From: Hyphomicrobiales bacterium
GTDB lineage: Bacteria; Pseudomonadota; Alphaproteobacteria; Rhizobiales; Rhizobiaceae
Direction of reading: 5' to 3'
Length of the DNA stretch: 64,000 nucleotides
NCBI GenBank assembly: GCA_030456445.1
Contig: JAKDNM010000002.1
Coordinates: 1 to 64,000 of the forward strand
Below, in pieces: positions 27,394 through 53,275 of the stretch. Position 1 is the first letter of the stretch; each line of letters starts with the position of its first letter. Under the pieces are notes generated by a model that did not search any database, had not been told where the DNA came from, and was given only the letters and a program-made list of their open reading frames with translations. The translations under genes were made by a program, and so were the position numbers.

Positions 27394-28449
27394 ATGTCGA
27401 CATTTGAACGCTATCTCACCCTCTGGGTCGCCTTGTGCATTGTTGCCGGTATCGCGCTCGGGCACGTCATGCCGGGCGCATTCCAGGGGATCGGCGCGGC
27501 CGAGATCGCCAAGGTCAACCTTCCGGTTGCCGCACTGATCTGGCTGATGGTCATCCCGATGCTGCTCAAGATCGACTTCGCTGCGCTCGGCGAGGTCGGT
27601 CGGCACTGGCGCGGCATCGGCGTAACTCTGTTCATCAACTGGGCGATCAAGCCGTTCTCGATGGCACTGCTCGGCTGGCTCTTCATCGGCTGGCTGTTCC
27701 GGCCGCATCTGCCGGCCGACCAGATCGACAGCTATATCGCCGGTCTGATCATTCTCGCCGCCGCGCCCTGCACGGCGATGGTGTTCGTCTGGTCGAACCT
27801 GACCAAGGGCGAGCCGCATTTCACGCTGAGCCAGGTGGCGCTCAATGACGCCATCATGGTCGTAGCTTTTGCGCCGATCGTCGGCCTGCTGCTCGGGCTC
27901 TCCGCCATCACCGTGCCGTGGGGCACGCTGGTCCTTTCGGTCGTGCTCTACATCGTCATCCCGGTGATCATCGCACAACTGATCCGTCGCCGGCTGCTTG
28001 CAACCGGGGGACAGGCCGCGCTCGACCGGCTGCTGGCCAGGCTCGGCCCAGTCTCCCTCGTCGCGCTGCTGGCGACGCTCGTGCTGCTGTTCGGCTTCCA
28101 GGGCGAGCAGATCATCGCGCAGCCCTTCATCATCGGGCTCCTCGCCGTTCCGATCCTGATCCAGGTTTATTTCAATGCCGGCCTCGCCTACGTCTTCAAC
28201 CGCATGGCCGGCGAGCAGCATTGCGTCGCCGGGCCATCGGCGCTGATCGGCGCCTCCAACTTCTTCGAGCTGGCGGTTGCCGCCGCCATCAGCCTGTTCG
28301 GCTTCCACTCGGGGGCTGCGCTCGCGACCGTCGTCGGCGTGCTGATCGAAGTCCCGGTGATGCTCACCGTCGTCTGGATCGTGAACCGATCCAAGGGCTG
28401 GTACGAGCGCGGCGACAAGGTCGCGGCGATTGCCGAGGCCCACCGTTGA
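27394..28449 (+). CDS. acr3: ACR3-type arsenite efflux transporter
   Basis: [52 protein letters not shown]. Confidence 0.95.
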
Positions 28450-29159
28450 TGCAGAACGATCTTCCCAATGTCGCTGCTGACAACCTCGACGTGCCGATCA
28501 TCGACCGGCTGCGCGCGACACCCTCGACTCATCCGCCGCGTATCCTGTTGCTCTATGGATCGCTGCGTGAACGCTCCTACAGCCGGTTCCTGACGCTGGA
28601 GGCCGAACGTCTGCTCAAGCATTTCGGCGCGGAAACCCGTATCTTCGATCCGCATGGGCTACCGCTGCCCGATGGGGCCGCGATCGACCATCCGAAGGTG
28701 CGAGAATTGCGCGAGCTATCGGCCTGGTCCGAGGGTCAAGTCTGGACCAGCCCGGAGCGGCATGGCGCGATGAGTGCGGTGATGAAGGCGCAGATCGACT
28801 GGATACCGCTCTCGGTCGGCGCGGTGCGGCCGACGCAGGGCCGGACGCTGGCTGTCATGCAGGTCTCCGGCGGCTCCCAAAGCTTCAACGCCGTCAATCA
28901 GCTTCGTGTGCTCGGCCGATGGATGCGCATGATCACAATCCCCAACCAATCGTCCGTCGCGAAGGCCTATCAGGAGTTCGACGAGGCGGGGCGGATGAAG
29001 CCGTCCTCCTATTATGACCGGGTTGTCGACGTGATGGAGGAACTGGTCAAGTTCACGCTGCTGACCCGCGACGTCTCCCACTATCTCACCGACCGCTATA
29101 GCGAGCGCAAGGAAGCCGCCGAGCACCTGTCCGCGCGCGTGAAGCTCTCAGCGATCTGA
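28449..29159 (+). CDS. arsH: ArsH NADPH-dependent FMN reductase / organoarsenical oxidase
   Basis: [60 protein letters not shown]. Confidence 0.95.
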
Positions 29160-29165
29160 CGCAAC

Positions 29166-29191
29166 GCTATTTCGATGTTTCTCGAAATAGC
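29166..29191. promoter_or_regulatory. Inverted repeat GCTATTTCGA-TGTTTC-TCGAAATAGC upstream of the second arsR
   Basis: 10-bp perfect arms, 6-nt spacer, same TCGA-n6-TCGA geometry as at 26032-26065. Confidence 0.75.
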
Positions 29192-29228
29192 CGTTGACCA
29201 TTCGCCGCACAGACGATAGCTTATTTCC

Positions 29229-29549
29229 ATGAACATCGAACAAGCAGCAAAGCAGCTTGAGGCGCTCGGCAACCCGACGCGGCTTCAGGTCTATCGAATG
29301 CTCGTGCGGGCCGGCGATGACGGATTGCCGGTCGGCAGCCTGCAGGAGAAGCTCGGAATCGCGGCTTCGACGCTCTCGCATCATCTGCACCGATTGATCC
29401 TGACCGGCCTGGTGACGCAGGAGCGTCAGGCGACCACGTTGATCTGCCGCGCCAACTATCCGGCCATGGACAGCCTTGTCGGCTTCCTCGTGGACGAATG
29501 CTGCATCGATGCGCCCTGTGCCGTGACGGAGAGAGAGACTGCCGCCTGA
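29229..29549 (+). CDS. arsR: ArsR family transcriptional regulator (second)
   Basis: AKQLEALGNPTRLQVYRMLVRAGDDGLPVGSLQEKLGIAASTLSHHLHRLILTGLVTQERQ; ECCIDAPC C-terminal Cys motif. Confidence 0.92.
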   Translation: MNIEQAAKQLEALGNPTRLQVYRMLVRAGDDGLPVGSLQEKLGIAASTLSHHLHRLILTGLVTQERQATTLICRANYPAMDSLVGFLVDECCIDAPCAVTERETAA

Positions 29550-29592
29550 TCTTTTTTTGCGCTGTATTTCGATAATCCCGGAAGGACAGAAT

Positions 29593-30987
29593 ATGACAAA
29601 GCAAGCTCTGGAATCCCTCCCGATAGCCGTGATAGGCGGCGGACCCGTCGGTCTGGCGGCCGCAGCGCATCTCGTCATGCGGGGTCTGCCCGTCAAAGTC
29701 TATGAAGCCGGAGATACCGTCGGCGCCAATATGCGCGACTGGGGCCATGTCAGGGTTTTCACGCCCTGGCGATACTGTGTCGACCCGGCGGCGACGAAAT
29801 TGCTCGAACGCCAGAATTGGCGCATGCCGGAACCCGACCTATTCCCGACCGGCGGCGAGATCGTCGCCAAATACCTCGAACCGCTTGCCGCGACGCCGGA
29901 GCTTGCCGGCGTGATCGAAACCGGCGCGCGCGTTGTCGCGATCTCCCGACTCGGGCTCGACAAGGTGGTCAGCCGCGCACGCGGGGAGCACCCGTTCGTC
30001 CTGGCGGTGAAAACGCCGACCGGCGCGCGCCGTGATCTCGCCAGGGCGGTGATCGATGCCTCCGGCACATGGGCAACGCCGAATCCGCTTGGCGCGAGCG
30101 GCCTGCCAGCCGATGGCGAAACCGAGTTCGCGGACCGAATCGCCTATGGCATTCCCGACGTGCGGGGCCGGCATCGTGGAACATATGCCGGGCGAACAAC
30201 GCTGGTCGTCGGCGCCGGACACTCGGCGGCCAACGTTCTGCTCGATCTTGTTCGGCTCGCGGACAAAGAGCCGTCAACGAAGTCGATCTGGGCGACGCGC
30301 AGCACCAATCTCATTCGCATCTATGGCGGCGGCGATGCCGATCAGTTGCCGGCGCGCGGCGAACTTGGCGCAGAAACGAGGGAACTGGTCGAAAGCGGTC
30401 GCGTGCCGCTCGTTTCAGGTTTCGCGATCCTTGCTTTGCGGGAAGAAGACGGTCGGATCATCGTCGAAGGCGAAACGGCCAAAGGAGCGAAGACGATTGG
30501 GCCTATAGACCGGATCGTGGCGGCCACCGGCCAGCGGCCCGACCTTTCCATGACACGCGAATTGCGGCTCGATCTCGATCCGTGGCTCGAAAGCACCAAG
30601 GCGCTCGGGCCGCTGATCGATCCGAATGAACATTCCTGCGGCTCGGTGCCACCGCATGGCCATCGCGAACTCGCTCATCTTGAGCCTGGATTCTATACCG
30701 TTGGCATCAAGAGTTATGGCCGCGCGCCAACCTTCCTGCTGCTGACGGGCTATGAACAAGTCCGCTCGATCGCCGCCGCCCTCGCCGGCGATATGGCGGC
30801 GGCCGACAATGTTCAGCTCGTCCTTCCGGAGACCGGCGTCTGCACCACGACATTCTCCGTCGAAGGGAGCGAAGCAGCGGGATGCTGCGGCGGCCCGGCA
30901 CCAGCCAAGGTCGATGCCTGCTGCGCAGCCGACGCCGTGGCGAAGGACGAAGGCAAGAAGGGATGCGGCTGCGGAGTTGCCGCGTGA
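29593..30987 (+). CDS. FAD/NAD(P)-binding monooxygenase-like protein with Cys-rich C-terminus (arsenic operon)
   Basis: VIGGGPVGLAAAAHL Rossmann motif, second LVVGAGHSAANVLLDL; tail CCGGPAPAKVDACCAADAVAKDEGKKGCGCG. Confidence 0.85.
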   Translation: MTKQALESLPIAVIGGGPVGLAAAAHLVMRGLPVKVYEAGDTVGANMRDWGHVRVFTPWRYCVDPAATKLLERQNWRMPEPDLFPTGGEIVAKYLEPLAATPELAGVIETGARVVAISRLGLDKVVSRARGEHPFVLAVKTPTGARRDLARAVIDASGTWATPNPLGASGLPADGETEFADRIAYGIPDVRGRHRGTYAGRTTLVVGAGHSAANVLLDLVRLADKEPSTKSIWATRSTNLIRIYGGGDADQLPARGELGAETRELVESGRVPLVSGFAILALREEDGRIIVEGETAKGAKTIGPIDRIVAATGQRPDLSMTRELRLDLDPWLESTKALGPLIDPNEHSCGSVPPHGHRELAHLEPGFYTVGIKSYGRAPTFLLLTGYEQVRSIAAALAGDMAAADNVQLVLPETGVCTTTFSVEGSEAAGCCGGPAPAKVDACCAADAVAKDEGKKGCGCGVAA

Positions 30988-33136: not shown

Positions 33137-33775
33137 ATGGCTTCCCCGCAGACATTGACGTTGAGCGAGGCGGGCTATGTGCTCGACCGGTCAACCACAA
33201 CGCTGAACAGAGCAGTCGATACCGGTGTCATTCGTGCGAAACAGCGCAGGGTCGGCAAGGCTGTGCAGCGCCTCGTCGGTCCAGCGGAACTTCGCTTTCT
33301 GCGACTGGCCGATGAGCTCGATAAGGATCTGACTCCTTCTGGCCGCCGGCGCCTCTACGAGGCGCTGCGGAAGTTATCTGCCAGCACCCATATGGTGCGA
33401 TGGGGCAAGCTCGACCTCGACCTCGCGCGAATCGACAGCGATCTGGAAGTCCGCCTCGCTCGGCTCGAGCACATTCGAGGCTGGGTGGATCGCAGCGAGG
33501 ACCAGTCCGAAGCTTTGATCCGGGATACTGAGATCCCCGCCCACTTGGTTGCTGCGCTCTCCAAGGAGCAGACCGTCGACGAGATCCTGAGCGATTTTCC
33601 GTCGTTGTCGAAGACTCAGGTCGAGGCGGCTATAGAATATGCCAAGGCCTACCCAAAGCGCGGTCGGCCTTACGCTCCTCGGAGCCTGAAGCGGACGCTG
33701 TCGGAGATGGCCGACCTTGGCGTCTTTGATGGAGACGACAGACCGGAGGAATCGGCGCCTCGGGCAATTCCGTGA
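33137..33775 (+). CDS. DUF433-containing antitoxin-like protein
   Basis: N-terminal HTH-like; C-terminal TVDEILSDFPSLSKTQVEAAIEYAKAYPKRGRP DUF433 signature. Confidence 0.8.
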   Translation: MASPQTLTLSEAGYVLDRSTTTLNRAVDTGVIRAKQRRVGKAVQRLVGPAELRFLRLADELDKDLTPSGRRRLYEALRKLSASTHMVRWGKLDLDLARIDSDLEVRLARLEHIRGWVDRSEDQSEALIRDTEIPAHLVAALSKEQTVDEILSDFPSLSKTQVEAAIEYAKAYPKRGRPYAPRSLKRTLSEMADLGVFDGDDRPEESAPRAIP

Positions 33776-34203
33776 CGCTGTACCTTCTTGATGAGAATGT
33801 CCTTCGGGAGGCAGGAGCCCGCGGCAACGACAATGTTCGCCGCTGGCTCGCAACCATCGACGATATTGACCTGCGCTTGAGCGCCGCAACGCTGTTCGAA
33901 AAGCGGCGCGGCGCGCAGGCTCTGAAGAACCGCGACGTCGAACGCTCCGCGGTCCTTCTCACCGCGATCGATGCGCTGGAGAAGTCGTTTTCGGATCGCA
34001 TCATTCCTATTGATGCGCCCGTGGTGGCGGAGTGGACCCGTCTGCTTGCGGGCAAGAACAAGGACCGGTGGGATCTGGCGCTTGCGGCTACGGCGAGGGT
34101 TCATGGGCTTGTTCTCGTCACGCGGAATGTGCGGGACTTTGCCGGGCGTGGTGTCCGCATCCTTAACCCCTTCAAGGATCCGCCTGAAGAGCTCGAGGCC
34201 TGA
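33772..34203 (+). CDS. vapC: PIN-domain (VapC-like) ribonuclease toxin
   Basis: YLLDENVLREA ... DRWDLALAATARVHGLVLVTRNVRDFAGRGVRILNPF; ATGA overlap with the upstream antitoxin. Confidence 0.88.
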   Translation: MTLYLLDENVLREAGARGNDNVRRWLATIDDIDLRLSAATLFEKRRGAQALKNRDVERSAVLLTAIDALEKSFSDRIIPIDAPVVAEWTRLLAGKNKDRWDLALAATARVHGLVLVTRNVRDFAGRGVRILNPFKDPPEELEA

Positions 34204-34322: not shown

Positions 34323-35640
34323 TTGCGCTTGATTTTTGCGAGACGAGCACTGCAAAGGCGACTAAACGACCTGCGCGTGACTCTTGACGGCAGCGCGGTC
34401 GACAATCTAGCGGCGCGACTTAACCGACCGGGCAGAGATCGTCTTGCGGCGATGTGGGAGGTCGCAGTACTTCATGCGCTTGCGGATTCCGGCATGCTTC
34501 GGAGCGAGGTTCCACTCGCTTCGGGGAGCCGCCCGGACGCCTTCTTTGACAATGGGGATCTTCGGTTCACCGCGGACATTACTACCGTGTCAGACGAGGG
34601 GCTCGATGATGGCAATCCTTTTTTCGAGCTGAGCGCGCTTATTGAGAAAGAAAAGACTAAATTGGGTCTGCCTATCGGTGGCGTGGATCTGCGCGTTAAG
34701 TCGATGGACCATCGAACCGGGCGAGGAACCAGGACCGTGCTGCGGTTGCCTCCTCGCAACCAGCTGGGGGCGTTTGTCCGGAACGAGATAGTGCCGCAAT
34801 TGCGCGACCAGATACGTGCCGGCGAATGGCCGTTGCGCGTCGCGATTGACAGTGATGACGCAGGCTTGGACATCACGATAAATCCTGCAAAATCGCCCTA
34901 CAGCCAAGGCGGATTCGCTGCCTATGACGTCCCGCGGATCAAGGACCGCAACCCTCTGTTCAACGCGCTCAAGCCAAAGGCGGAGCAACTCCGCGGTGCT
35001 GAGGGCGTTACAGGCGTGGTTGTGTGCGACGGGGACTGCGCCGCTCTTTCCGAACGTCAACATAGTCGGAATCAAGTATCAGCCGAGACAATCGCCGAAG
35101 ATTTCCTGCGCCAGTATTCATCGATCGATTTCGTTCTCCTGTTGACGATCCGGGAGGCACAGCAATTGTGGCCGCGGGTTGAGCCCGCGGGTCGCCGAGT
35201 ACATCACATCCTTGTGGTCCGCGCGGGATTTAATGCTAAAGACCAGCTGAGTGCCTTGTTTGCCGCGATGATCGGAAAGCTTCCGAAACCCGTGGCGATG
35301 CCGGTTAACGGCGCGCTTCGCGCACGGGAGCCAGGATACGATCTTGGGCATCACGGAGGATACCAGATGGAAGGAAAGAAAATCCGCATCAGTTCGCGGG
35401 AACTGATGGAGGTTCTTGCCGGCCTTCGGACGTTCGCGGACAATGGCGCCAAGAATGTTGAGGCGAGCCGTCGCCAGCCGTCCCGGCCAAGTCCGGTACA
35501 GAACATTTTCCTGAGGAATCTTCAGCACGGCCAGCGTCCAACGGCCATCAATGTCATCATACGGACGAAGACGATGGTGATGATTGGATTGAGTTCGAGT
35601 TCGACGAACCCGACCCGGCGATTTCCCCGTTCAGCTGACT
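34323..35640 (+). CDS. Uncharacterised protein with PD-(D/E)XK-like N-terminal pattern; probable frameshift near 35545
   Basis: MWEVAVLHALADSG...SRPDAFFDNGDLRFTADITTVSD; acidic tail TDEDDGDDWIEFEFDEPDPAISPFS is in the neighbouring frame. Confidence 0.5.
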
Positions 35641-35661
35641 TGCTCAACCGCGGCCGAACCG

Positions 35662-36246
35662 TTGCGAGCGAAACAGACGATCTCTTCTCTCGCCGAGGCG
35701 CCGGAGCCCGACGTTTCGGATGTGATCGACATTATGGCCAACCGGGTGGGTGAGGACCGCCTCTATCGCCTGGCTCCGGTACAGAGCGACGTTCCCGAGC
35801 GGTCGGTTCAACGTATTGCGCCGATGGCGCCCGACACCGGCGAGGGCTGGCCCGGCCATTGGCCACGACCGTCGCGACTGCTGCAGCGACCGGAGCCGAT
35901 CGAGACGGTGGCGCTTCTCCCCGATCATCCGCCGGTGACCTTCACTTGGCGCGGCGTTCGTCGGCGCGTAAAACGTGCTGACGGCCCGGAACGCGTTTTC
36001 GGGGAATGGTGGAAGCGTGACGCGGAGCTCGCCGCGGTCAGGGATTATTTCCAGGTCGAGGACGAGAACGGCGAACGCTACTGGGTTTACTACTCCTACC
36101 ATGTCCCTGGTTCGATGGCCTGGATCTTCTCCGACACTCGTGTGGATATCCGCTTCAACGATCCCAGCGTCCATCGCGAGCGGATTTCACCCCTTCGACT
36201 CTCTTCCTTCCGACCCTCGCAAGGGGAACGATGCCGGGCAGCGTGA
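35662..36246 (+). pseudogene. Fragment of ImuB / DNA polymerase Y family protein C-terminus
   Basis: DRLYRLAPVQSDVPERSVQRIAPMAP...TFTWRGVRRRVKRADGPERVFGEWWKRDAELAAVRDYFQVEDENGERYWVY. Confidence 0.75.
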
Positions 36247-36349: not shown

Positions 36350-38212
36350 CTACCGTCGCGCCTTCCCTGGCAGTAGCTGAACGCAGGTCGCAAGTGTGTC
36401 ATCATCAACGCAGTGGTCAACCGGGCGTACGCCATCCAGATCCCGCTGAGGCTGTCGCAGCCAAAGTTCCGCCAGGTCGTCGCGTTTGAAATTGGTGCGC
36501 GCTGCAGCGCGAAGAGATGAAATCGCCTTCTCGCGTCGGTTTTCCCGCCGCGTCTGTTCACGCATATCCTCTTTCCATCGATCGAGGACTCCGACCGCTT
36601 TCCAGAAGTCGGCCTGAGACCGTCTTGCCATCGCGGCCGGAGAATCCCCGCCCAGGCTCTCGCAGCCAGCCAACATCCATGCTCCTGCGCTATCGCCCGT
36701 CGCTGCTTCGACCGATCTGAGAAGGCTCGCTTCCCGATCCGATGCATCGCGCTCGGCCTTCTCGGCGGCTTCTTTGGATCGCCGCTCCTCTCCCAAGCGG
36801 TGCGCTTCCTGTCTAGCGCTGATCTCCCGCATCACGGGGAGGTCCAGATCGTCCGTCACCTGCGGCGGACGCCGGCTCATTTCCCCGAGCAGACGCTCAA
36901 ATTTACCCAGGTATTCAAGCCAAGCATCCTCGTCGCCCAGGACAAAATCGGCCGCGCCGGCGCCTGCCGGATCAGGTCGTGAGAGCCACGTGTCGAAGTC
37001 GAAACCCTCACGGAAATTCTCGCGCACGAAGGAGATGATCTTCGCTACAATGCTGCTGAGCTCGTCGGTTCGTTTTTGTGGGCGCTCTTTCAGTTCTTTC
37101 GCATGTCGAACGGAGTCGAACAGCCGCTTCCCGCCAGCCAGCTTGCCCCGTCGATCGATCGGGATGATCGATCCAGACTTCTGCATTGAGGCGAGGAAAT
37201 CTCCAACGGCCTCCCATGGGACTCTAATATTCCGAGCTGCTCGGAGGCGCATTCCGGCGGCAACTTCGTCGCTTACAAAGCCGAAGCGCTGATCGATCCA
37301 GCCTCTAGCCTTGATGGCGGCAAAAACCTCCTTTCTCGTAAAGCCATTTTTCGCTGCAAGTCCGTACTCAATCAATGCGAACGATTTCCACTCTTCTTCA
37401 CGGACCAGGAACCCGATCGCCAACCCTTGAGTAGCGATGGCCGATCCAAGGCCATGCTCGGTCGCCCCATCTTCCCACTCACCGACCTCTCGCTCGACTC
37501 GCGCGATTTCCTTCGCTGCCGCCAGCAGATCCCGGGCCTGAAAGTCGACCTGCTCAAGGCGCTTTCGTTCGATTTCAGCGAGCTTTGACTGTGCCGCTGA
37601 AACCTTTGGATTGTGCAACCATACACGCGGCGCTTCTGACAGGATCGCCTCAACGAGCGTGTCTAGCGGCCAGTCCCTGTAGCCGGAAAGATCGATCTCG
37701 ATCGAGCCGACGTTCAGATTGCGCAGCCTCGCGAGTTTTTCTGGCCCGCAGGCATGGGTTACCAGAAACTCGACATGCAGAATACGGCCCGCCCGCTTGC
37801 AAACGACATCCGGTACGATCTCGCCGTGCCGCTTTTCTAGGTCCGCACTGTCGAATACGAAGTCGCCCTCGTGCACCACGTCGAGAGAATTCCTGCCGTC
37901 GCTTTCCCGCAAACCTGGCAGCTTGAGCCGGAGCGCCGCTGCAAGAGTCTTCTTCGCAAATTTGTGCAAGGCGGTCTCGCCGGAGGACACGCACGTTCTT
38001 CCGTCGTTATCGGCCGCGTGCTGAAAGTGCTGCCGTTTCTCGCCCCTATGGGCGACCATCGGCCGACCGCATCCCGGGCATATACATCCACAGGAAAGAC
38101 CTGACACCGCATCGTCGATATGGACCGGTTCTCCTGTCTGGACAGATTCCGCTACTGTCCGCTTTCCCTCGGACGTGCAGGACATGAGTTCGAAGAGGGT
38201 AGGAACGCGCAC
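36350..38212 (-). CDS. CoiA-like protein: zinc-ribbon plus PD-(D/E)XK-like nuclease region, long C-terminus
   Basis: CGCICPGCGRPMVAHRGEKRQHFQHAAD...ALHKFAKKTLAAALRLKLP...PDVVCKRAGRILHVEFLVTHACGPEKLARLR. Confidence 0.65.
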   Translation of the reverse strand: MRVPTLFELMSCTSEGKRTVAESVQTGEPVHIDDAVSGLSCGCICPGCGRPMVAHRGEKRQHFQHAADNDGRTCVSSGETALHKFAKKTLAAALRLKLPGLRESDGRNSLDVVHEGDFVFDSADLEKRHGEIVPDVVCKRAGRILHVEFLVTHACGPEKLARLRNLNVGSIEIDLSGYRDWPLDTLVEAILSEAPRVWLHNPKVSAAQSKLAEIERKRLEQVDFQARDLLAAAKEIARVEREVGEWEDGATEHGLGSAIATQGLAIGFLVREEEWKSFALIEYGLAAKNGFTRKEVFAAIKARGWIDQRFGFVSDEVAAGMRLRAARNIRVPWEAVGDFLASMQKSGSIIPIDRRGKLAGGKRLFDSVRHAKELKERPQKRTDELSSIVAKIISFVRENFREGFDFDTWLSRPDPAGAGAADFVLGDEDAWLEYLGKFERLLGEMSRRPPQVTDDLDLPVMREISARQEAHRLGEERRSKEAAEKAERDASDREASLLRSVEAATGDSAGAWMLAGCESLGGDSPAAMARRSQADFWKAVGVLDRWKEDMREQTRRENRREKAISSLRAAARTNFKRDDLAELWLRQPQRDLDGVRPVDHCVDDDTLATCVQLLPGKARR

Positions 38213-38217
38213 TTTCG

Positions 38218-39015
38218 TTACACCCTCGGCGGCATTGTGGCTGCGTCGATCCGACGATGGATCAGTGATACAAGTGAGAGAAGGTCCTCTGCGTCGTCCT
38301 TCGAGATTGTCCAGTTAATCTTTGCCTCATGGGCCGCCGGATTCCGAAACATCCCGAAGGTGCCCTTTAAGAGATTAGAGAAGCCCTTCTGCTCGTCCTG
38401 CTCGCTTTTCGTCCGAAGCGCATTGATGGCGAGCATGGGCGGGCTTCCGCTGAAGGCCCGATCGACTAAAGCCGCGCCGTCATCCATAAGGCCGGTGCGC
38501 CTTCTAACCTTGTCCGCGACGCTCTTCACCGCTTCGAGCACCGCATGAAAGTAGTTGTCATGCAGCAGCTCCTCCTTGCAGAATGAGAGCACGTCAGGAT
38601 GAACACCGCGGGAGAGCAAGTCAGCGCGTAGATCGCGGGCTCTCCGTTCCGCCTCACCGAGGGTACCAGCCCTTGTGGCGGACCCCAGCGTCCCAGTCGC
38701 ATCTACCGACATTCCAACGAAAGCGAGAGCGCGATTTAGGTTTGCCCGCATAGGCTCGAAGCGCGCGGTCTCGCGCGCAAATCGCGTTGGCTTCATCGCT
38801 TTTCTGATGAAGGCGAGGATGCGGGTTCTTTCTTTGCTCTGGTTTTGCTCATGCGCAAATGCGTTGTAGAGGCGATGCCGTTTCGTCATCGCCGGATCGG
38901 TATCCATGATTTTACAAGTCTGGAGCAGGAACCCGATTTCGGTTCCTGTAAGCCCCTCTGATGTATCCGCAAGAGCATCGGCTATGGCCTGGAGCTGATC
39001 CTGTGTGAAATGCAC
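38218..39015 (-). CDS. TIGR02391 (Ymh-like) family protein
   Basis: SRGVHPDVLSFCKEELLHDNYFHAVLEAVKSVADKVRRRTGL...LLKGTFGMFRNPAAHEAKINW; GTG start at 39015 inferred. Confidence 0.8.
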   Translation of the reverse strand: MHFTQDQLQAIADALADTSEGLTGTEIGFLLQTCKIMDTDPAMTKRHRLYNAFAHEQNQSKERTRILAFIRKAMKPTRFARETARFEPMRANLNRALAFVGMSVDATGTLGSATRAGTLGEAERRARDLRADLLSRGVHPDVLSFCKEELLHDNYFHAVLEAVKSVADKVRRRTGLMDDGAALVDRAFSGSPPMLAINALRTKSEQDEQKGFSNLLKGTFGMFRNPAAHEAKINWTISKDDAEDLLSLVSLIHRRIDAATMPPRV

Positions 39016-39316
39016 CTCTTCCCCCCAATAACGCTGCAACCCCACACGCTTCTCATCCAAGTACCCGCGACCGACCTGACAACATCGCATCTTCGAACAG
39101 CCGTGGTCGGCGATATCAAACCGGACATGTTCGAATCTGAAGTCCAGTCGCCGAAATATGGCGCTATACGGCTGTTTGCGGCAAGACTTGGCAGTGTCGG
39201 CTGTCCAGCCGTCCATATCGGACTCAGCATCCGTCTTCTCGTCTGAGTTACCGCACGGTCGATGCCTTTAAACGAAAAGCAGCCATTGAACGAATCTGTT
39301 AGGTTCAAAGTAATCC

Positions 39317-42300
39317 ATGGGCGCGGGACACATGACAGCTGTCAAACGGAAAAATAGATCGACCTTGGAATCACGGTTCAGGTTCGCGGAAGACGCATTC
39401 GGAAGCGTGGCCGGGGAATGGGATTCCCACCTCCGAACAGCCGTCGGCATCGAGGACGGCGAGCGGTATCTGCTGCGTTTGTTCAAGAAGACGGGTACGG
39501 CGCTGGACGACGACTTGAGAGCAATCATTGCTCGCGGTCTTAGGAGGATTCGGCGCGTTCTTTCGTCTCGTCGCGCTCGGGATGTTCTCGTTGAGGTCCT
39601 GGAAATTGCGGAAGATCAACACGAGCTCGCCATCGTAATGGTGGATCCGGGCAGCCCGATTTTACGAGCCTCCCATCGCAGGAGGACGAAAGAGGGGCGC
39701 TTTCTGACAAGTGCAAGCCGTGGCGTATTCTGGAGGAACATCGTCCGTGTCGCGGAGGCGCTGGCGCTGTGTCACGACGCGGGCATCGTGCATGGCGGGG
39801 TGAGCATGCATTCCATATTTTCGCACCGCGACGAAAGCGCCGACTGTCGTCTCGGTGGTGTTGAGGCATGCGTTCACATTTCTGACAGTGATCTTGGAGC
39901 GTCCGGGCATCTTCTCCGCGCCTCCGCTACGATCTCCTTCCGGCAGGACTGGATCGACCTGGCCGCAGTTTCCGGCTCTATTCTAGGCCTGGATAGCGAC
40001 AATCCTCCTTCGCTTTTGTCGGTTGAGCGCCGGATGCTGGATCGGCTGGCCAATCCACCGCAGTTTCAGCTTTTTGACGGCGCCGTCGTACTGGATGAGT
40101 TGCAAAACGTTGTCGTCGAACTCGACAGAGTCGGATCCAGCTCCGACGGGGAACTGGTTCTTTATCCCTCAAGGAACGTGGTTCAGAGCGATCTGCCGAC
40201 CCTGTCGTCAGGCACCATACCCGCGGCCGACAGCGCGGCGATAATGCAGTTCGTTGCCGACGATCTCGTCTCCGCCGGTGTGCGGCTCGTCCCTGCGGGG
40301 CAGGACCTCGCACGCGTCATGACTGATCTGGCAATCTACAATGTTCGGATTGTGAGCGACTCTGTCGGGATGATCGAAGGTGCGCACCAGCGTCGCTCGA
40401 ACGAATGGATGCATGGCGCGGTCGACATAGTCCACCGGCTACATCTTTCCAGAAATCGAGCAGGCGCCGAAGAACGGGTTCAAAACCTCGGCCCTGGCGC
40501 CAAACGCTGGCGCGACCTAATGGATGCCAACCGCGCTGCCGACGGGACGAACGACGTTCCAATATGGTTCGCTCTGATCCTCCTCGAAGCATTTACACTG
40601 CTGAGGGAGCAGTTTCGGCTCTATCCCGTCGATGTGCTCTCCCCCGCCAACGCGGAAGCGAACGTCGTCTGGCTGGCACCTCGAGATGAGGCGGACCGGG
40701 ACACACATCGCGAGACGATGGGCCTGCGTCCAGCTGCTGAGGCACTCCGGCGCGAGCTCAGATATGACGACGGAAAAGCGAACTGGGTACTGTCGCAGAC
40801 GGCAAGCCTTGTAACGGGTCGACAGCGCGTGCCGGAACTCAGCTACGAGGGTAGCGGCCTGGTCAACGGGAAATCGGCGTTCGCCTTCGGGACAAACCTG
40901 CCAATCCCACCGGGACAATGCCTCTATCTCCGACCTCGCAAGGACACCGGAACCGAGCGCGCCATTCGGCGCCGGCTCCAGAATATAGTCGCCGCCAGGT
41001 CCAACGTAGAGCTCCTGAGAGCATTGGACGATCCGGTGCAAGTCGCTATGGACGAAGTGCTGCGCGACATCGCAGTTCCCGGCCCGCCTCCGGCTGAGGC
41101 AAAGATGGAGCGGTCCAAGGTCGAGGCCTGGCAGTCGATTGTCTCCGGGAAATCCATCAATGTGGTGGTCGGGCCGCCGGGCGTGGGAAAGACGTTTCTG
41201 ATCTCGCACCTTGTAAAGAGCATCCTGCGTCAAACGCCAGATGCTCGGTGCCTCATATCCGCACAGAACCACGAGACACTCCTCCACATGGAGGACGAGC
41301 TTCGTAAATTCCTCCCGACAGACTCCACCATCGTCGTTCGCGTCGAGAAGTCGCGCTCCAGCGAAAAGGAGAGCACGCTGAGGCGGAGCTCGCGTTCTTT
41401 GCTGCGTTCGGTGTCGAAACCGGATGCCGACAGCGCCGCCGTTATGATGAACCAGCTCAATCAGATTGGCCAGGCGCTTGGCCCGCACGATGCTTCGGAG
41501 CACTCGATCGCGGACCGCGCCTTGCGCGATACGGATAATCTGATGCTCCGCTCGTCGGACGTCACGCTGGCGACGACATCGTCGCATGTTCTTGAAGAAA
41601 TGATCGCCGACGGCGAGCAGTTCGACTGGGTCTTCATTGAGGAGGCGGCGCGCGCCAACGGCGCCGAATTGATCGGAGCCCTGCTTCTCGGAAACCGCCG
41701 GGTCATGATCGGCGATCACAATCAGCTGTCCCCCTTTGACGCGGGCGAACGCCAGAAGTTCTACGACGCCGGTAGGGCGAACGAACTGCTGCGGGACGCG
41801 AAAGAGAAGCTGGCGGCGATTTCCGACCTGCCGAACGAGGTAGAGTTTGCGCTGGACGCACTGAATGCGGACCAGTTCCTGCTCAACGACGTTCTCGCCA
41901 TAGCGTCTCGTCTTGAAGAACCGTTCAGATCCATTGCGATGCGTGAAGAGACCAGGATCGAAGACACACACCGCCCCAGCACGATCGCCAACACGCTCAG
42001 TGAGCAAAGCCGCATGCACCCGGCGATATGCGAGTTGGTTTCCAACACCTTCTACAAGCACCAGCTCACCACGTCGGAACGCGTGAAAGCCCGCGAGCGA
42101 GCGGTGGAATGCGCAGAAGGATTTCCTGCCTCTCCGATTGTGATCCTGGACCTGCCCTCGCTCAGCGTGGTCAAGCGGCGGGCGTTCGAGCAACCGGTGA
42201 AGCGTTCCTATCGCAATGAAATCGAAGCGACGGCATTGCTGGCAGCCATGAAAAAACTACGGCCGATCATCCGGAAAGGCGCGCCGGTGCCGACGCTTGT

Positions 42301-42763
42301 GGTCCTCTCTCCGTATTTGGCGCAGGTGAACCACGTCGACCGGCTCATCAAGCCCGAAATCGACACCGCGACGGGTACGCTGTTTGGTTTTGCCAGTCCG
42401 CGAGGCGATGGAAAGTTCGCCTATACGAGCGACAGTTTCCAGGGCGGCGAGGCCGACGTGGTTGTCGCCAGCCTTGTGCGAAACAACGTTCTTGTCGGGT
42501 CGAGGGCCCTCGGTTTCATCAAAAATCCCCAACGTCTGAACGTCCTGCTCAGCCGCGCCAAGCATAAGCTGATCCTGGCAACCAGCCGACAGTTCATCAC
42601 CAATGCGGTGAACGGAATCGATCCGGACGCGCTGAGTGATGAGTTCGGCTTTCTGCGGAAGACGCTGAGCGAAATAGCACGCCTGTCCGAGACGGAATTT
42701 TCGGCGATTGGCAAGGGTGCGTCTATCATCGCCGTGGATGAGCAGGGGAGGCTACCCCTGTGA
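39317..42763 (+). CDS. Pseudokinase-like domain fused to UPF1/COG1112-type SF1 helicase; type I Mokosh MkoA-like
   Basis: ALALCHDAGIVHGGVSMHSIFSH (degenerate kinase loop); helicase VVVGPPGVGKTFLI, DWVFIEEAARAN, GDHNQLSPF, SEQSRMHPAI, YTSDSFQGGEADVVVASLVRNN, NVLLSRAKHKLILATS. Confidence 0.85.
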   Translation: MGAGHMTAVKRKNRSTLESRFRFAEDAFGSVAGEWDSHLRTAVGIEDGERYLLRLFKKTGTALDDDLRAIIARGLRRIRRVLSSRRARDVLVEVLEIAEDQHELAIVMVDPGSPILRASHRRRTKEGRFLTSASRGVFWRNIVRVAEALALCHDAGIVHGGVSMHSIFSHRDESADCRLGGVEACVHISDSDLGASGHLLRASATISFRQDWIDLAAVSGSILGLDSDNPPSLLSVERRMLDRLANPPQFQLFDGAVVLDELQNVVVELDRVGSSSDGELVLYPSRNVVQSDLPTLSSGTIPAADSAAIMQFVADDLVSAGVRLVPAGQDLARVMTDLAIYNVRIVSDSVGMIEGAHQRRSNEWMHGAVDIVHRLHLSRNRAGAEERVQNLGPGAKRWRDLMDANRAADGTNDVPIWFALILLEAFTLLREQFRLYPVDVLSPANAEANVVWLAPRDEADRDTHRETMGLRPAAEALRRELRYDDGKANWVLSQTASLVTGRQRVPELSYEGSGLVNGKSAFAFGTNLPIPPGQCLYLRPRKDTGTERAIRRRLQNIVAARSNVELLRALDDPVQVAMDEVLRDIAVPGPPPAEAKMERSKVEAWQSIVSGKSINVVVGPPGVGKTFLISHLVKSILRQTPDARCLISAQNHETLLHMEDELRKFLPTDSTIVVRVEKSRSSEKESTLRRSSRSLLRSVSKPDADSAAVMMNQLNQIGQALGPHDASEHSIADRALRDTDNLMLRSSDVTLATTSSHVLEEMIADGEQFDWVFIEEAARANGAELIGALLLGNRRVMIGDHNQLSPFDAGERQKFYDAGRANELLRDAKEKLAAISDLPNEVEFALDALNADQFLLNDVLAIASRLEEPFRSIAMREETRIEDTHRPSTIANTLSEQSRMHPAICELVSNTFYKHQLTTSERVKARERAVECAEGFPASPIVILDLPSLSVVKRRAFEQPVKRSYRNEIEATALLAAMKKLRPIIRKGAPVPTLVVLSPYLAQVNHVDRLIKPEIDTATGTLFGFASPRGDGKFAYTSDSFQGGEADVVVASLVRNNVLVGSRALGFIKNPQRLNVLLSRAKHKLILATSRQFITNAVNGIDPDALSDEFGFLRKTLSEIARLSETEFSAIGKGASIIAVDEQGRLPL

Positions 42764-44499
42764 ACCACATCTACATCCCGGCCTGGCACTATCGGGCACC
42801 CGGCGTCGTCCAGCGGACTTGGGGCTGGAGCCCCGTTGAGGAGATGATCCTTTTGTCACTGGATCGAAGCCCGGGAACGATCGATGACATCTCCCGTGGC
42901 CTTAAAATTCCCCGGCAGGTCGTTGGCTCAACTGTAGCCCGGCTGATGCAGTTCGGACTTGTCGAAGTCCGGCTGTCGCCGCAACCGGTTCTGGCCACCA
43001 GCAGCGTTGGCCATGGCTTCATACGCGCGGGTCGCGCGCTTCCAGAACGCACCGCCGATCGTGAGATCGGTATCAGCGTTGTCTACGAGAAGGTCGGACA
43101 ATCCGTCTTCAGAACCAGGGACGTTGAGACGATCCCCGTCACCAAGCTGCCCGCAAAAGGCGCGATTATCGCGTTTCCGGTAGGGGAGCCACCGGAAACA
43201 CATTATTCGATGATGGAGCGTGTCAACCAGTTCATGCTGGGTATGCTCAGGCCCGGCGAGTGGCTGCGGGGCGTTCAGGCCAACAGCTCTTTCCTGGAGC
43301 GAAGGTTTCTTGTGCTTGACCTCGACCAGGTTCGTGACGGCGTCTTGCCGCAAGGCGCAAGCGACCAACTTGTCGAAGCCCTCAAAGCGACGATCAAGAC
43401 CGGCATTCTGCCCAAAACCACGACGGCCCCAGCAGACCAACCCGTTTCCATAGAAACACGATTCGATGCCGACGGTCTTCTCGTTGGTTCCGAAAAGCAT
43501 CTGGAATGCTTCGAGCGGATCGTGGGCGCGGCCAAGTCCAACATATTTGTCCTTTCGACGTTCGTCGCATCGCAGTCCGACGAAAAAGGCAGGGAGAATC
43601 GCGAACGCATCTGGCGATCGCTCGAGGATGCATGCAGGCGCGGCGTGAGATGCCACCTGTTCTTCGGCACCACGCTTGATCGCGTCAAGCACGCCATGGC
43701 CATGCAGGAACTCTTCGTTCGCTTGTCCGCCGTGCGGCAGACGAGGGGCTATCTGCAGGTACAAAGGGATCCGGTCGGCAGTCACGCAAAGATCCTTGCC
43801 GCCGATGATGGTCAAGATGGTGGCGTCGTTGTGATGGGCTCGTGCAACTGGCTCTCCTCCCCTTTTTCGGCAGTCGAAGTCTCGGCCGAACTTAGAGCAG
43901 CCAACGCCGTCGCGGAAGGATTGGATCTGCTCCGGGCGATCATTTCCAAGTTGTCCAGCACTGGCCGATCCGTCGAGGCGCTTCAGTTCATGGCCGCTGA
44001 ACTGCGGCGCCAGAGAAACATCCTGTCGAACAGCGATGAGGTGCAAGCGCCGACTGCGAAGCTGACGATCCTTCATGCCCATGATCACGAGCGTCTGCTG
44101 CGTGTCGCTGCACACGAGGCGCAACAACGCTTCGTCTGCTGTACGAACAGGGTCGGCGCAAACATGGTGCCGGCCCTGTTTGACCCGGCTGAGGTTGCCG
44201 GCCGGCGGTTGAGCGATGTCCGCGTCTATTACTCACGCCGCTCCGGGCCGGTTAAACGCGGCCATATGACAAAGCAACGCGAGCGGCTCAATGGCGTGGT
44301 GGAGCTTGCGGGTGTGCCCGAGCCGCAATTGCATGCCAAGTTTCTCGCCTGGGACAGCGACCATGTCGTCATCAGCAGCCTGAACTGGGGCTCCGCGTCG
44401 GGTCTGGAGGAAAACCCGCTCGATGAAATCGGCCTCTATTTCGAAGGCAAGGATCTGGCGACCTCTTTGATCAACAAATTCGAGGCCGAAAATCAATAG
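42760..44499 (+). CDS. PLD-family nuclease-like protein with N-terminal winged HTH; type I Mokosh MkoB-like
   Basis: Two HKD-type motifs (SHAKILAADDGQDGGVVVMGSCNWLSS; LHAKFLAWDSDHVVISSLNWGSAS); ATGA overlap with the helicase gene. Confidence 0.85.
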   Translation: MNHIYIPAWHYRAPGVVQRTWGWSPVEEMILLSLDRSPGTIDDISRGLKIPRQVVGSTVARLMQFGLVEVRLSPQPVLATSSVGHGFIRAGRALPERTADREIGISVVYEKVGQSVFRTRDVETIPVTKLPAKGAIIAFPVGEPPETHYSMMERVNQFMLGMLRPGEWLRGVQANSSFLERRFLVLDLDQVRDGVLPQGASDQLVEALKATIKTGILPKTTTAPADQPVSIETRFDADGLLVGSEKHLECFERIVGAAKSNIFVLSTFVASQSDEKGRENRERIWRSLEDACRRGVRCHLFFGTTLDRVKHAMAMQELFVRLSAVRQTRGYLQVQRDPVGSHAKILAADDGQDGGVVVMGSCNWLSSPFSAVEVSAELRAANAVAEGLDLLRAIISKLSSTGRSVEALQFMAAELRRQRNILSNSDEVQAPTAKLTILHAHDHERLLRVAAHEAQQRFVCCTNRVGANMVPALFDPAEVAGRRLSDVRVYYSRRSGPVKRGHMTKQRERLNGVVELAGVPEPQLHAKFLAWDSDHVVISSLNWGSASGLEENPLDEIGLYFEGKDLATSLINKFEAENQ

Positions 44500-44514: not shown

Positions 44515-45434
44515 TCACTTCAGTATTGTATGATCGCAACCAGGATACTGGTTGCACCCGAAGAACCTGCGATTGTTACGTCCCATTCGCTCCACGAGAT
44601 GGCCGACCCGGCAAGCCGGACATTGACGCAAGGGGTCGCCGTCAACGGATTCAAAGCGCAGGTTGTCGCCGGCGATCTCGGAAAGTTCGCGGATGTATCG
44701 AGATGGTTCACGGCTGTTCGCGAGAAGGAACACGCCTCGGCTCGCGCGGGTCAGGGCGACATAGAAGAGACATCGCTCTTCGGCATATTCGAAGGCCTCT
44801 GGTCGAGGCATGACCAGATTGAGCAGTTCGTCATCCTCGATCCGGCTCGGTACCCCGCCGAGGCGATCAACAGGTTGTTGTCCTCCAGACGGATGCAGGC
44901 TTCCCGCTGCTGCTCCGACAAGGATCGTCCGTCGAGGTCGTCGAAGAAAGGACGGCATCTGCCAAGTTCAGCGGACACGAATGTATCATTGTAGTTTTTG
45001 CGTGTTGCCGGGTCCGTGAGGAGGGCGAATGACGACGGCAACGCATCCTTCAAATGCGCCGGCATCATTTCCGGATCGAAAAGGGGATGGGACAATGCCG
45101 CGGCGGCTTTGCCCGGAACCGCCGCGATCGCCCGTGCGAGATCGGCATGCGCCAGATATTGCCGCTGGTGCTCCGTAATGGCCCGAAGCCGTACGTCCAC
45201 CTCGTTCAGTCGATCTGCCTCCGAACCAACTACGTCCGATAAATGAACGTTGATGAAGCTGTAGAGGTCGGCGGCTAGCTGGATCGCAGCTTCCTGACCA
45301 AGACAGGAGAGACGATCGGTCCGGCCCCGCGAGCGGATCTCCACGGAATGCCAGAGCAATGCTTTTTCGACCGATATGGCAGCGATATCCAGGCAAGGCA
45401 GATCGGCTGTCTTGCACAGACCGAGCTGCACCAC
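44515..45434 (-). pseudogene. UvrD/HelD-like helicase with internal deletion between Walker A and motif VI; C-terminal zinc ribbon
   Basis: DGRSLSEQQREACIRLEDNNLLIASAG then, frameshifted, IEDDELLNLVMPRPEAFEYAEERCLFYVALTRASRGVFLL...CPACRVGHLVERMGRNNRRFFGCNQYPGCDHT; true start may lie further upstream. Confidence 0.8.
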
Positions 45435-49329: not shown

Positions 49330-50571
49330 TCAGATCGGCAAGGGCGGCATGTCGCCGTCCGCGACACGCCATATCCAGGCATCCATTTCCGGCCGAGAGG
49401 CGATCAGCTTGTCGAGCGCGGTCTCAAATTTTTCATCTGCGGTCGGCGGTGCGATGTAGAGCGCCACCGGGCGCGGCTGGCGCTGCAGGAACATGGCAGC
49501 CGCCATCGGCTGATCGAGGGGCAGATTGTAGCGCAAACCCTTGGTGCTCTGCTCCCGTATTCGGGCAAGCGCATCGAGCAGTCGCTTTTCGTAGGCGGAC
49601 TCGTAAGGTATCCAGTTCTCCGACACCACCATCAGGGCGATTTCCTCGATGATCGCGAGACCGGCCGCGTTCAACCCGAACGTGGCGATAGCGATCAAAT
49701 GCGATGCATCGTCCGCGCTCCAAAGCGCAATCTCGCTTTCGAACCGCGCCTGCAGGCGACGATGCAATCCCTCATCGAGAATGAGTGGAAACCCCGGCAT
49801 ATGTTTCACGACGAGATTCATGCCTGAGCGAGCCGGCGCGAACTCCTTCACCTCGCCGACCAGCACCATCAGCGGGCGCGGCCCGCTTTTCGGCGGCAAA
49901 GCATGGATTAGAGCCTCCGCCCGGCGCTGCTCGATCGCCAGCTTGTTCTGGGACCGGAACTGCTCGGGAATGTAGAGGATGTCGGAGAGCGGCGCGCCCT
50001 TCACCACCATATGCTTCGCGGCTTCGAGCAAATGCCATTGCAGGTTCCACCAGTGCCGTTTGCCGGACCAGGCAGACATCCATTTCGTCATGCCCGCTTC
50101 ATGCCACAAATAATGCAGCAACCCGCGCAGCGTCATCTTGCGTGGCTCACCGACCACGCTGTCGACCGCACCACTGCCGGCACCGACGGGTGAGACCCGG
50201 CTACCTCGTTTCGACAGGCTGAACTCCAGCTTCAGCGCCGCCATCCCGGTCGCCGGGTCAAGCTGGATCGCACTGCCCATCAGCGCGCCAAGACCGGAGA
50301 GTTCGTAAGGTGGCTCGAAGGACTCACAAGCCGGGTCGTGTTCGGCGCCCGTCAGCGGCATGCGCTTGATGAAGAACTGGTCGCCCATGCGGGCGATGTA
50401 CATCGGCACACCTGGTTCCTTGCACAGACAGAGCGGCCGCTGCCTAAGTTCATAGGCGGACTTCAGCGCCGTTTGCAGGTCACGCGCATTGTTGTCATAG
50501 GACCCAGCTCCGATTCTGAACTGCCGCATCGCCTCCATCGCTCCAGGATCGCCGCGCCCTCCACCACCCAT
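49330..50571 (-). CDS. DUF1173 family protein
   Basis: LQTALKSAYELRQRPLCLCKEPGVPMYIARMGDQFFIKRMPLTGAEHDPACESFEPP; start uncertain (50571 or 50538). Confidence 0.8.
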   Translation of the reverse strand: MGGGGRGDPGAMEAMRQFRIGAGSYDNNARDLQTALKSAYELRQRPLCLCKEPGVPMYIARMGDQFFIKRMPLTGAEHDPACESFEPPYELSGLGALMGSAIQLDPATGMAALKLEFSLSKRGSRVSPVGAGSGAVDSVVGEPRKMTLRGLLHYLWHEAGMTKWMSAWSGKRHWWNLQWHLLEAAKHMVVKGAPLSDILYIPEQFRSQNKLAIEQRRAEALIHALPPKSGPRPLMVLVGEVKEFAPARSGMNLVVKHMPGFPLILDEGLHRRLQARFESEIALWSADDASHLIAIATFGLNAAGLAIIEEIALMVVSENWIPYESAYEKRLLDALARIREQSTKGLRYNLPLDQPMAAAMFLQRQPRPVALYIAPPTADEKFETALDKLIASRPEMDAWIWRVADGDMPPLPI

Positions 50572-50760
50572 TGAGTCATGGCTTTTCCTACAACGCAACC
50601 CGTTCAGCCGTCGGATTGAGAAGGCCGGCCTCCGCGGCTCTTCACCCTTCGGGTGCGCACCCCGACGCGCGTGGCGCGCGGCTGCGGCATTGATGCTGGG
50701 CGCGGCCGCCGCTGGGGAGAGAGGGAGAGGGGAGGCCGGAATCCGGCGGCGGGTGGAGGA

Positions 50761-50779
50761 CCGGGAGAGAGGCTCCCGG
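50761..50779 (+). promoter_or_regulatory. Leader hairpin CCGGGAG-AGAGG-CTCCCGG 21 nt before the DUF932 start
   Basis: Perfect 7-bp stem; related hairpin before parB at 53419-53433. Confidence 0.5.
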
Positions 50780-50800
50780 CGCCCGTCGCGGAGCAAGACC

Positions 50801-51997
50801 ATGACCCAGATCGAAATTCAGGCACCATCACGTATTACGCGCAATGGCTACAAGGTCGACGTCAGCAGAGGCCAGACCATCGGCCGCGTGTCCTCGGAAT
50901 GGTTCAACCGACCGTCAGACGAGCGCTATCTGTCGCTCACCGACCTGCATAATTCGGTGAAGCGCCGGACCGAGCGCAGCAAGACCCGTATCGTCGAGAG
51001 CGAGGCTATCCGCGTCGAAGCGTCTCGCGACAATCCTGAGCGGCTGATGTTGATGATGCCAGAGGCTCACGCGCCGGTCGCGCCGACCCACTGGAGTTTT
51101 GGCCAGCTCGCCGGCCTGGTCGGCGCGCCCGCCGCCTATCTGCGTCAGCTTCCGGCGCCGCTCGCCGGCATCAACCTGCAGCACGGGCTGCTCCACCATC
51201 GCGCAGAGCAGATCAAAACCCTCGAAATCGAGAACGGCCGCTTGGAGCTTCGCGCGGTTACGGGCCCGGATTACGGGAGAATTTTCGACCACGAACTCGT
51301 GGAGGCTGTGCAGAAGATCGCCGGCAACGGCACCGGCGACACGCGCTGGAAAGTGCCCGGCGTCCTCGACTGGTCGACCCACATCTACAATCCCAATGTC
51401 GATATCTCGAAGGATACGACGACGCTTTATGCCTCCGACCGCGACATCTTCGTATTTCTGGTCGACGACCTTAACCCCATAGAGGCGGGTCGGCTGCCGA
51501 ACGGAGAACCCGACTTATATTTCCGTGGGTTTTATGCCTGGAACAGCGAGGTCGGCTCAAAAACGCTTGGAATTGCAAGCTTTTACCTGCGTGCCGTGTG
51601 CCAAAATCGAAATTTGTGGGGGGTCGAGGATTTCCAGGAAATCACCATCCGCCATTCCAAATACGCCGCATCGCGCTTTGCGCTCGAAGCCGAACCGGCA
51701 CTGATCCAGTTCGCCGAGTCCTCGCCCATGCCGTTCATAAACGGCATCAAGGCGGCGCGCGAGCGCATCGTCGCGCGCGACGACGACGACCGCACAGCCT
51801 TCCTGCGCAAGCGCGGCTTCTCGAAGGGCGAGACGTCAAAGATCATCGACGCGGTGCTCAACGAAGAAGGGCATCCGCCGGCTTCCATCTTCGACTTTGT
51901 CCAAGGCATCACTCGCGTCGCGCGCGACAAGCAACACCAGGATGACCGGCTCGAAATGGAAGGCAAGGCCAAGAAGCTGCTCGACCTCACCCACTGA
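50801..51997 (+). CDS. DUF932 (phage/plasmid-like TIGR03299) protein
   Basis: WSFGQLAGLVGAPAAYLRQLPAPLAGINLQHGL...RALTGPDYGRIFDHELVEAV...YASDRDIFVFLVDD. Confidence 0.85.
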   Translation: MTQIEIQAPSRITRNGYKVDVSRGQTIGRVSSEWFNRPSDERYLSLTDLHNSVKRRTERSKTRIVESEAIRVEASRDNPERLMLMMPEAHAPVAPTHWSFGQLAGLVGAPAAYLRQLPAPLAGINLQHGLLHHRAEQIKTLEIENGRLELRAVTGPDYGRIFDHELVEAVQKIAGNGTGDTRWKVPGVLDWSTHIYNPNVDISKDTTTLYASDRDIFVFLVDDLNPIEAGRLPNGEPDLYFRGFYAWNSEVGSKTLGIASFYLRAVCQNRNLWGVEDFQEITIRHSKYAASRFALEAEPALIQFAESSPMPFINGIKAARERIVARDDDDRTAFLRKRGFSKGETSKIIDAVLNEEGHPPASIFDFVQGITRVARDKQHQDDRLEMEGKAKKLLDLTH

Positions 51998-52000
51998 TCG

Positions 52001-52017
52001 CCCCCCCCCCCGGGGGG
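52001..52017. repeat. Homopolymer junction C11-G6
   Basis: Direct reading immediately after the DUF932 stop. Confidence 0.8.
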
Positions 52018-52271
52018 CCCGTTCCTGCATGTTGTACTGGCCGTCTCTCATGATCGCAGCCTCAAGGCGCCGCTTCCAACAGCACGGGGGCGGCGCTTTT
52101 CGTCGTGATGGGCCAGGAGGTCGAAAGGTGAGCCTACACACAGCAGCAGCAAGACGGTCACCGTAGACCGGCAGGCACTCATCCACATCCTCATGGATCA
52201 TGCCCGCATGCTGGAGGCGCTGCGTAAGGTCGGCCGTGTCGACATTGGGGAACCGGATGGTTAGCGTGCTA

Positions 52272-52658
52272 CTATTCGGGAAGATTGAACCGCTCGATCG
52301 TCACGGCCCGATCGGCGTTCACTGTGATCTCCAGCACTTCGTTCCACGCCTCCTCCCCGCCAAGTTCCGAGAGGGCAAGGAGGAAAAGACGCACCTGAAG
52401 ATCAAGGCTCATCAATCCCGGCGCCGTGTTAAAGGTTACCAAACCGACATGCAGTTCCTCGCGGCCATAGAGCCCACGAAAATCCGCAGTGTTGTGGGTG
52501 ACCAGGATATAGCCGTCATCGACAGCGCGCCTGGTCACCACATGATCCTTCGCCCCTGCCAGGCCGAGCCACCGCACATGGCTGGATTCCAGGTAGCCGC
52601 GCTCGCGCGCCAGTTTTGCCAGATCGGGGCTCAGGCATTCGTCGATCAGGAATTTCAC
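52272..52658 (-). CDS. DUF5615 PIN-like toxin
   Basis: MKFLIDECLSPDLAKLARERGY...DHVVTRRAVDDGYILVTHNTADFRGLYGREELHVGLVTFN. Confidence 0.88.
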   Translation of the reverse strand: MKFLIDECLSPDLAKLARERGYLESSHVRWLGLAGAKDHVVTRRAVDDGYILVTHNTADFRGLYGREELHVGLVTFNTAPGLMSLDLQVRLFLLALSELGGEEAWNEVLEITVNADRAVTIERFNLPE

Positions 52659-53275
52659 GAAGCCGCAGGCAGATCGTCGAGACGGACTGTGCGCGAGGAT
52701 CTCGCCGGCTTGTCACGCCACGCCGGTTTTGCCGGCGGGCGGCCACGTCGCGGATAGGCGAGCGCATAGTCCGCGGCGAGGCCGATCTGGTCGAGGGTGA
52801 GTGGCGGATAAGCGGCATGGATCGCCTCGGGCGCGTCGCCATTCGCGAGCATGTCCGCGACGTCATGGATCGGTACGCGCGTTCCGGCAAAGACCGGCTG
52901 GCCGCCAAGGATATCAGAATCGCGCGCCACCATCGCCTTCGCCTTCCGCAGCCGCGCAAGGCCGGTCTTAACGTCGGCGGCGATCGGCTTGAGGTCGACC
53001 TTCAGCAGGTCGGCGGCAACCACAGATGCAGCGTCGGTCGCGATCGCGCGCTCGACAATGCGCCGCCTTGCCGTTGGGGTCAGCGTCTCAGCCGTAAGCC
53101 ACGCCAGACGCAGCCCCAACAGCCCTGATCCGACAATGACGCGGCTGCCGCGACGCGTCTCGACGCGGCCGCGCAGCAATCCGGCGTCGATGATGCGATG
53201 CACCTGCTTGAGCGGCACGCGCGTCACCGACGCCGCCTCGTTGGCGGTGAGCACCTCGGCGTTGAATCCGACCAT
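52655..53275 (-). CDS. DUF433 antitoxin
   Basis: SDILGGQPVFAGTRVPIHDVADMLANGDAPEAIHAAYPPLTLDQIGLAADYALAYPRRGRP; overlaps the toxin start. Confidence 0.88.
   Translation of the reverse strand: MVGFNAEVLTANEAASVTRVPLKQVHRIIDAGLLRGRVETRRGSRVIVGSGLLGLRLAWLTAETLTPTARRRIVERAIATDAASVVAADLLKVDLKPIAADVKTGLARLRKAKAMVARDSDILGGQPVFAGTRVPIHDVADMLANGDAPEAIHAAYPPLTLDQIGLAADYALAYPRRGRPPAKPAWRDKPARSSRTVRLDDLPAAS

Follow-up and report, generated by a model that had tools for sequence, protein, structure and literature searches.

Our results suggest that two adjacent genes, here called ORF-A and ORF-B, of the 64,000-nucleotide stretch of DNA that was analysed (the window) form an operon-like defence pair put together from two independently mobile parts, a predicted HEPN RNase of the PD-Lambda-3_B type and a predicted CoiA-like DNase, in a PD-Lambda-3-like arrangement. 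We favour this explanation tentatively. The two genes are real and their role is probably defensive. Their combination is possibly recent, and known defence-associated parts were probably recombined here as a one-off.

Organisation of the locus

ORF-B and ORF-A lie on the same strand (minus), with ORF-B upstream and ORF-A downstream. ORF-A (36350 to 38212) begins with GTG and encodes a CoiA-like protein of 620 aa. The longest reading frame of ORF-B runs from 38218 to 39216; since the start falls on the GTG at 39015 in an alignment of eight relatives, we placed the gene at 38218 to 39015, encoding a TIGR02391/Hypoth_Ymh HEPN protein of 265 aa and of the PD-Lambda-3_B type. In the sequence, a spacer of exactly 5 bp (38213 to 38217, minus strand) separates the TAA stop of ORF-B from the GTG start of ORF-A. 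The sequence-only reading, which had described two minus-strand genes about 5 bp apart, was therefore accurate, its end at 39015 being the aligned start. Moreover, a purine-rich GAGGG is found inside the last codons of ORF-B, ahead of the ORF-A start, and with the 5-bp spacer it makes translational coupling of the two genes likely, as judged from the sequence. Taken together, the common strand, the 5-bp spacing and this ribosome-binding-like sequence suggest that ORF-B and ORF-A are expressed in a coupled manner, presumably from one transcript.

Upstream of ORF-B, a divergent intergenic region of approximately 300 bp (39016 to 39316), which presumably carries the promoters of both operons, leads to MkoA; no sigma-70-like match was reported in this region. 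As had been proposed, the divergent operon on the other side is Mokosh-like: PADLOC identified a Mokosh type I operon (39317 to 44499), with MkoA at 39317-42763 (plus strand; PDLC03920, 3.1e-210) and MkoB at 42760-44499 (plus strand; PDLC03922, 5.3e-86). This operon is a genuine neighbour that lies outside the ORF-A/ORF-B pair. The proposed defence context of the locus was upheld.

Other genes surround this island. At 33137-34203 a DUF433 protein gene is followed by a PIN-domain protein gene, likely a toxin-antitoxin pair, and a 476-aa frame adjoining the defence genes (34323-35753) has no Pfam, NCBIfam or PADLOC match. Minus-strand frame pieces resembling a UvrD-type helicase, possibly a broken gene, lie at 44515-45434, with a topoisomerase zinc ribbon at the end (PF01396, 5.2e-12). 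To the left of the island (27394-30987) we recognised by eye arsenic resistance-like genes (Acr3, ArsH, ArsR and an FAD oxidoreductase); on an Acetobacter plasmid (locus L134), a TIGR02391 gene is likewise near ars genes. Finally, the genes for a DUF1173 protein and a ParB-like protein (49330-55613), for an HTH_Tnp_1 transposase (at 48597), and for DUF1403 (at 22030) and DUF1612 (at 32547) proteins suggest that the window belongs to a plasmid or to an integrated element.

The HEPN protein and the CoiA-like protein

The earlier assignment of ORF-B to the TIGR02391/Ymh family proved correct, since the protein scored well above the curated cut-offs of both TIGR02391 (1.2e-43, 148 bits, cut-off 39) and Hypoth_Ymh PF09509 (1.2e-42, 145 bits, cut-off 25). 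In addition, it matched the PADLOC model PDLC03987 (PD-Lambda-3_B) over nearly its full length (2.5e-84, 259 of 270 positions), residues 69-327 of the long frame aligning with positions 6-264 of the model. Because of this match, half of the pair is already described as an abortive-infection component. The sequence-only reading had missed this homology, as well as the HEPN motif of ORF-B and the Xre/ParS-like C-terminus of ORF-A.

ORF-B is composed of a helical N-terminal part (approximately residues 1-118) and a HEPN bundle (approximately 119-258). In alignments of 9 and of 22 sequences, residues R224, N225, A228 and H229 of its R-N-x2-A-H motif are invariant and, on sequence grounds, R224 and H229 are the predicted catalytic R-x4-6-H motif of HEPN proteins. 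A survey of HEPN proteins listed Ymh as a family with the catalytic motif, occurring alone, fused or 'in operon with R-M' (PMC3710099). The AlphaFold2 model of ORF-B is confident (pLDDT 85.7) and mostly helical, and a fold search with it against the PDB gave no significant match, a Csm6 chain ranking sixth with an E value of 1.9.

ORF-A appears to be organised as an N-terminal Zn ribbon, a PD-(D/E)XK core, a helical middle region and an Xre/MbcA/ParS-like C-terminal domain (approximately residues 525-615). The family alignment shows both the ribbon (C41/C43/C45/C48, H62/H65 and C74) and the core, in which E79, H83, K87, D135, E148, H153 and K159 are invariant. The core had been placed at PDVVCKRAGRILHVEFLV, and this stretch contains two of the invariant residues, D135 and E148. 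Note that in this family the usual lysine of ExK is replaced, the core reading E-x-V/L. The CoiA-like call held up through the family more than through ORF-A by itself: 13 of the 15 family members match Pfam CoiA_N (PF25164) at E<=0.1 (best 1.7e-8), whereas ORF-A stays below the threshold (E 0.5, 10.4 bits versus a gathering value of 26.3). The C-terminal domain, Xre_MbcA_ParS_C (PF09722), is also sub-threshold in ORF-A (14.9 versus 24.5 bits) and is matched by six of the 15 members, with 6e-6 as the best value. CoiA-like proteins belong to the PD-(D/E)XK clan of Pfam (PMC1913061).

The structural model of ORF-A, built from five sequences, reached a pLDDT of 55 overall and is poor outside the core and the C-terminus; across most of residues 80-200 the pLDDT is approximately 73-89. 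It contains a helix (75-93), strands (95-150), a second helix (157-166) and a further strand (169-174). As far as sequence and model can be read together, the acidic core and the glutamate of the preceding helix fit the alpha-beta-beta-beta-alpha-beta order of the PD-(D/E)XK fold. The best matches in the fold search were RecU, R2 endonuclease, Hjc and HincII, all of them non-significant (E 0.036 or worse), and the C-terminus was superimposed on the Xre antitoxin of 9r35 with a probability of 1.00 and an rmsd of 1.0 over 48 columns (E 0.22). None of the PADLOC families was convincingly matched by ORF-A, and its identification as PD-Lambda-3_A, Shedu or another PADLOC nuclease was rejected because there were no matches. 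Two of its CoiA-like relatives weakly match Druantia DruB (best 2.6e-4).

Distribution of the two families and competing explanations

Relatives of ORF-A and of ORF-B were each drawn from plasmids, from genome samples of the class, the phylum and the order, and from viral contigs, and all the fetched stretches (flanks usually of 1.5-5 kb, some ended by contig ends) were scanned with the profiles of both families. Besides the window's own proteins, the scan covered 39 non-redundant relatives of ORF-A and 54 of ORF-B, and in none of their stretches were the two families together; the raw counts were 42 and 55, from which three and one window entries, respectively, were excluded. In the genomes, plasmids and viral contigs examined, the only place where both occur is the window and its own copies. 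Similarly, when 279 genomes of the order were searched with both profiles, ORF-B was found in eight others and ORF-A in two others, and no genome beyond the window's own had both. The phage collection contained no match to ORF-A. Among the viral contigs, queries with P0001 or with the L014 protein returned no ORF-A relatives, and other queries found some.

Such an absence of recurrent co-occurrence, or the finding of either gene without its partner, is what the sequence-only reading had itself named as refuting its proposal that the pair is an undescribed two-gene defence system. As a conserved new system the proposal is thus not supported, and the ORF-B family is in any case already known as PD-Lambda-3_B. 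Since the pairing was found nowhere else, it points to a local reshuffling of known parts rather than to a widespread new system, and a mutual need of ORF-A and ORF-B for each other is without evolutionary support in the genomes, plasmids and viral contigs examined.

The partners of ORF-B relatives are varied. The relatives adjoining these different genes are at 40-73% identity, and their neighbours include Hachiman HamA on a Serratia plasmid, Shedu SduA in Cupriavidus, a type I HsdR gene (locus L040), a DUF4365 gene (L059), AAA genes of the PADLOC candidate class PDC-S06 (L042 and L062), ABC-3C genes (pSinA and L039), an HsdR_N-like gene on Ti plasmids and an 'abortive infection family' gene in Roseomonas. 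HamA, SduA and DUF4365 proteins have PD-(D/E)XK folds. In locus L091, the PD-Lambda-3_A match reads YPDVAV...LTVEIRK, a typical PD-(D/E)XK core of the form D-x(n)-E-x-K. Genes of 170-187 aa upstream of ORF-B relatives were considered as PD-Lambda-3_A candidates and rejected; they encode HTH or DUF6431 proteins or are unassigned.

ORF-A relatives are also found in mixed surroundings, some with genes for a Fic protein and a methyltransferase nearby, others with a TIR protein or a type ISP restriction enzyme. In locus L115 (3241-6522), only 3 bp separate an AbiJ_NTD3 gene (PF18860, 1.4e-45) from the full-length ORF-A relative that follows it, so that the CoiA-like family has a further closely placed partner of the defence type; a HEPN C-terminus in this AbiJ_NTD3 gene was considered and rejected, its C-terminus resembling, by eye, a domain of the restriction-endonuclease type. 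In a viral contig (locus L141, 4971-6143), a CoiA-like relative of 390 aa, with a C-terminal stretch that is Xre/ParS-like by eye, directly follows a RecT-like recombinase, and other relatives adjoin a primase-polymerase (L129) and conjugation genes (L117). These mixed neighbours tie the ORF-A family to defence and to the DNA processing of mobile elements.

It is quite possible that ORF-A and ORF-B are two independent defence genes, neighbours by chance in an island, of which ORF-B would work as a HEPN toxin by itself or else together with other partners, and ORF-A by itself as a DNA nuclease, and whose operon layout would be incidental. The restriction of the pair to the window, among the sequences examined, would be expected in this case, and so would the ORF-A relatives that Bosea, Caulobacter, Microvirga, Phyllobacterium and others have without TIGR02391, and the often solitary ORF-B relatives of many viral contigs and prophages. 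Against chance adjacency stands the coupled expression that strand, spacing and ribosome-binding-like sequence suggest; moreover, ORF-B relatives elsewhere tightly adjoin a defence gene, as though this position had been selected. An unlikely alternative makes ORF-A a mobile-element protein for DNA processing or recombination, as CoiA is in competence, and ORF-B an addiction-like gene of the element. The recombinase, primase-polymerase and conjugation neighbours in L141, L129 and L117 fit this idea, but the TIR, type ISP and AbiJ-domain neighbours of other relatives do not, and a CoiA domain is reported in one validated defence system of Vassallo et al. (PMC9519451). Less probable still, the two genes could be accessories of Mokosh, for instance through a shared, regulated divergent promoter or as a fallback suicide module; adjacency, divergent orientation and a distance of about 300 bp within one island are consistent with this, although the genes are on the opposite strand and, across the loci examined, ORF-B relatives adjoin many other systems with no particular tie to Mokosh.

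Returning to the operon-like defence pair, it is the arrangement of the genes that suggests cooperation between the two proteins. In such a pair, ORF-A would bind and cut foreign DNA by means of its Zn ribbon and nuclease core, and ORF-B would be kept inactive, perhaps in a complex with ORF-A in which the Xre/ParS-type C-terminus of the latter may serve as the interaction domain. Upon infection by a phage, ORF-B would cut RNA, and the growth of the infected cell would stop. The design would resemble that of PD-Lambda-3, a HEPN protein together with a PD-(D/E)XK protein, with another nuclease replacing PD-Lambda-3_A.

Comparison with known systems

PD-Lambda-3 was reportedly described by Vassallo et al. 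in 2022 as a two-component abortive-infection system. PADLOC represents it with two models, PDLC03986 for the A component (159 positions) and PDLC03987 for the B component (270 positions); PDLC03985, which is PD-Lambda-2_C, was set aside as irrelevant. The system acts by abortive infection (PMC13190303), and one listing gives it a PD-(D/E)XK domain (PMC10952713). ORF-B resembles its B component almost end to end and, as in PD-Lambda-3, the HEPN gene adjoins a gene for a predicted PD-(D/E)XK nuclease; the difference is that the place of the A component is taken by the 620-aa CoiA-like ORF-A, downstream of ORF-B. PDLC03986 had no match at 1e-5 in the window's genome (an assembly approximately 93% complete), and since the A component was sought there and not found, the ORF-A/ORF-B locus is not PD-Lambda-3.

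With the CoiA-like proteins (CoiA_N, including that of the Vassallo PD system), ORF-A has in common the Zn ribbon followed by a core with E79, D135 and E148, but it differs in falling below the Pfam cut-off and in having a long helical region and the Xre/ParS-like C-terminus. Mokosh type I is next door in the same island, as a separate, divergent operon that has no protein in common with the pair.

The TIGR02391 genes beside Hachiman, Shedu, type I RM and ABC-3C encode homologous HEPN proteins of 267-270 aa, often adjoining a nuclease or ATPase gene; their partner gene varies, and a CoiA-like partner occurs only in the window. This broader pattern, in which one HEPN protein adjoins Hachiman, Shedu, type I restriction, DUF4365 and ABC-3C genes, outweighs the pair itself. 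One reading of it, which we regard as somewhat doubtful, is that the 270-aa TIGR02391 HEPN protein serves as a plug-in module, as an RNase or for licensing, that otherwise unrelated DNA-targeting defences have in common, these comprising PD-Lambda-3, Shedu, Hachiman, type I RM and ABC-3C, with the CoiA-like nuclease as a further host. If it were such an exchangeable second layer, the Shedu and Hachiman loci could reveal directly how RNA- and DNA-cutting defences are coupled. The nuclease-protease pair that is common to Hachiman and AVAST (PMC12799240) offers a comparison for a module of this kind.
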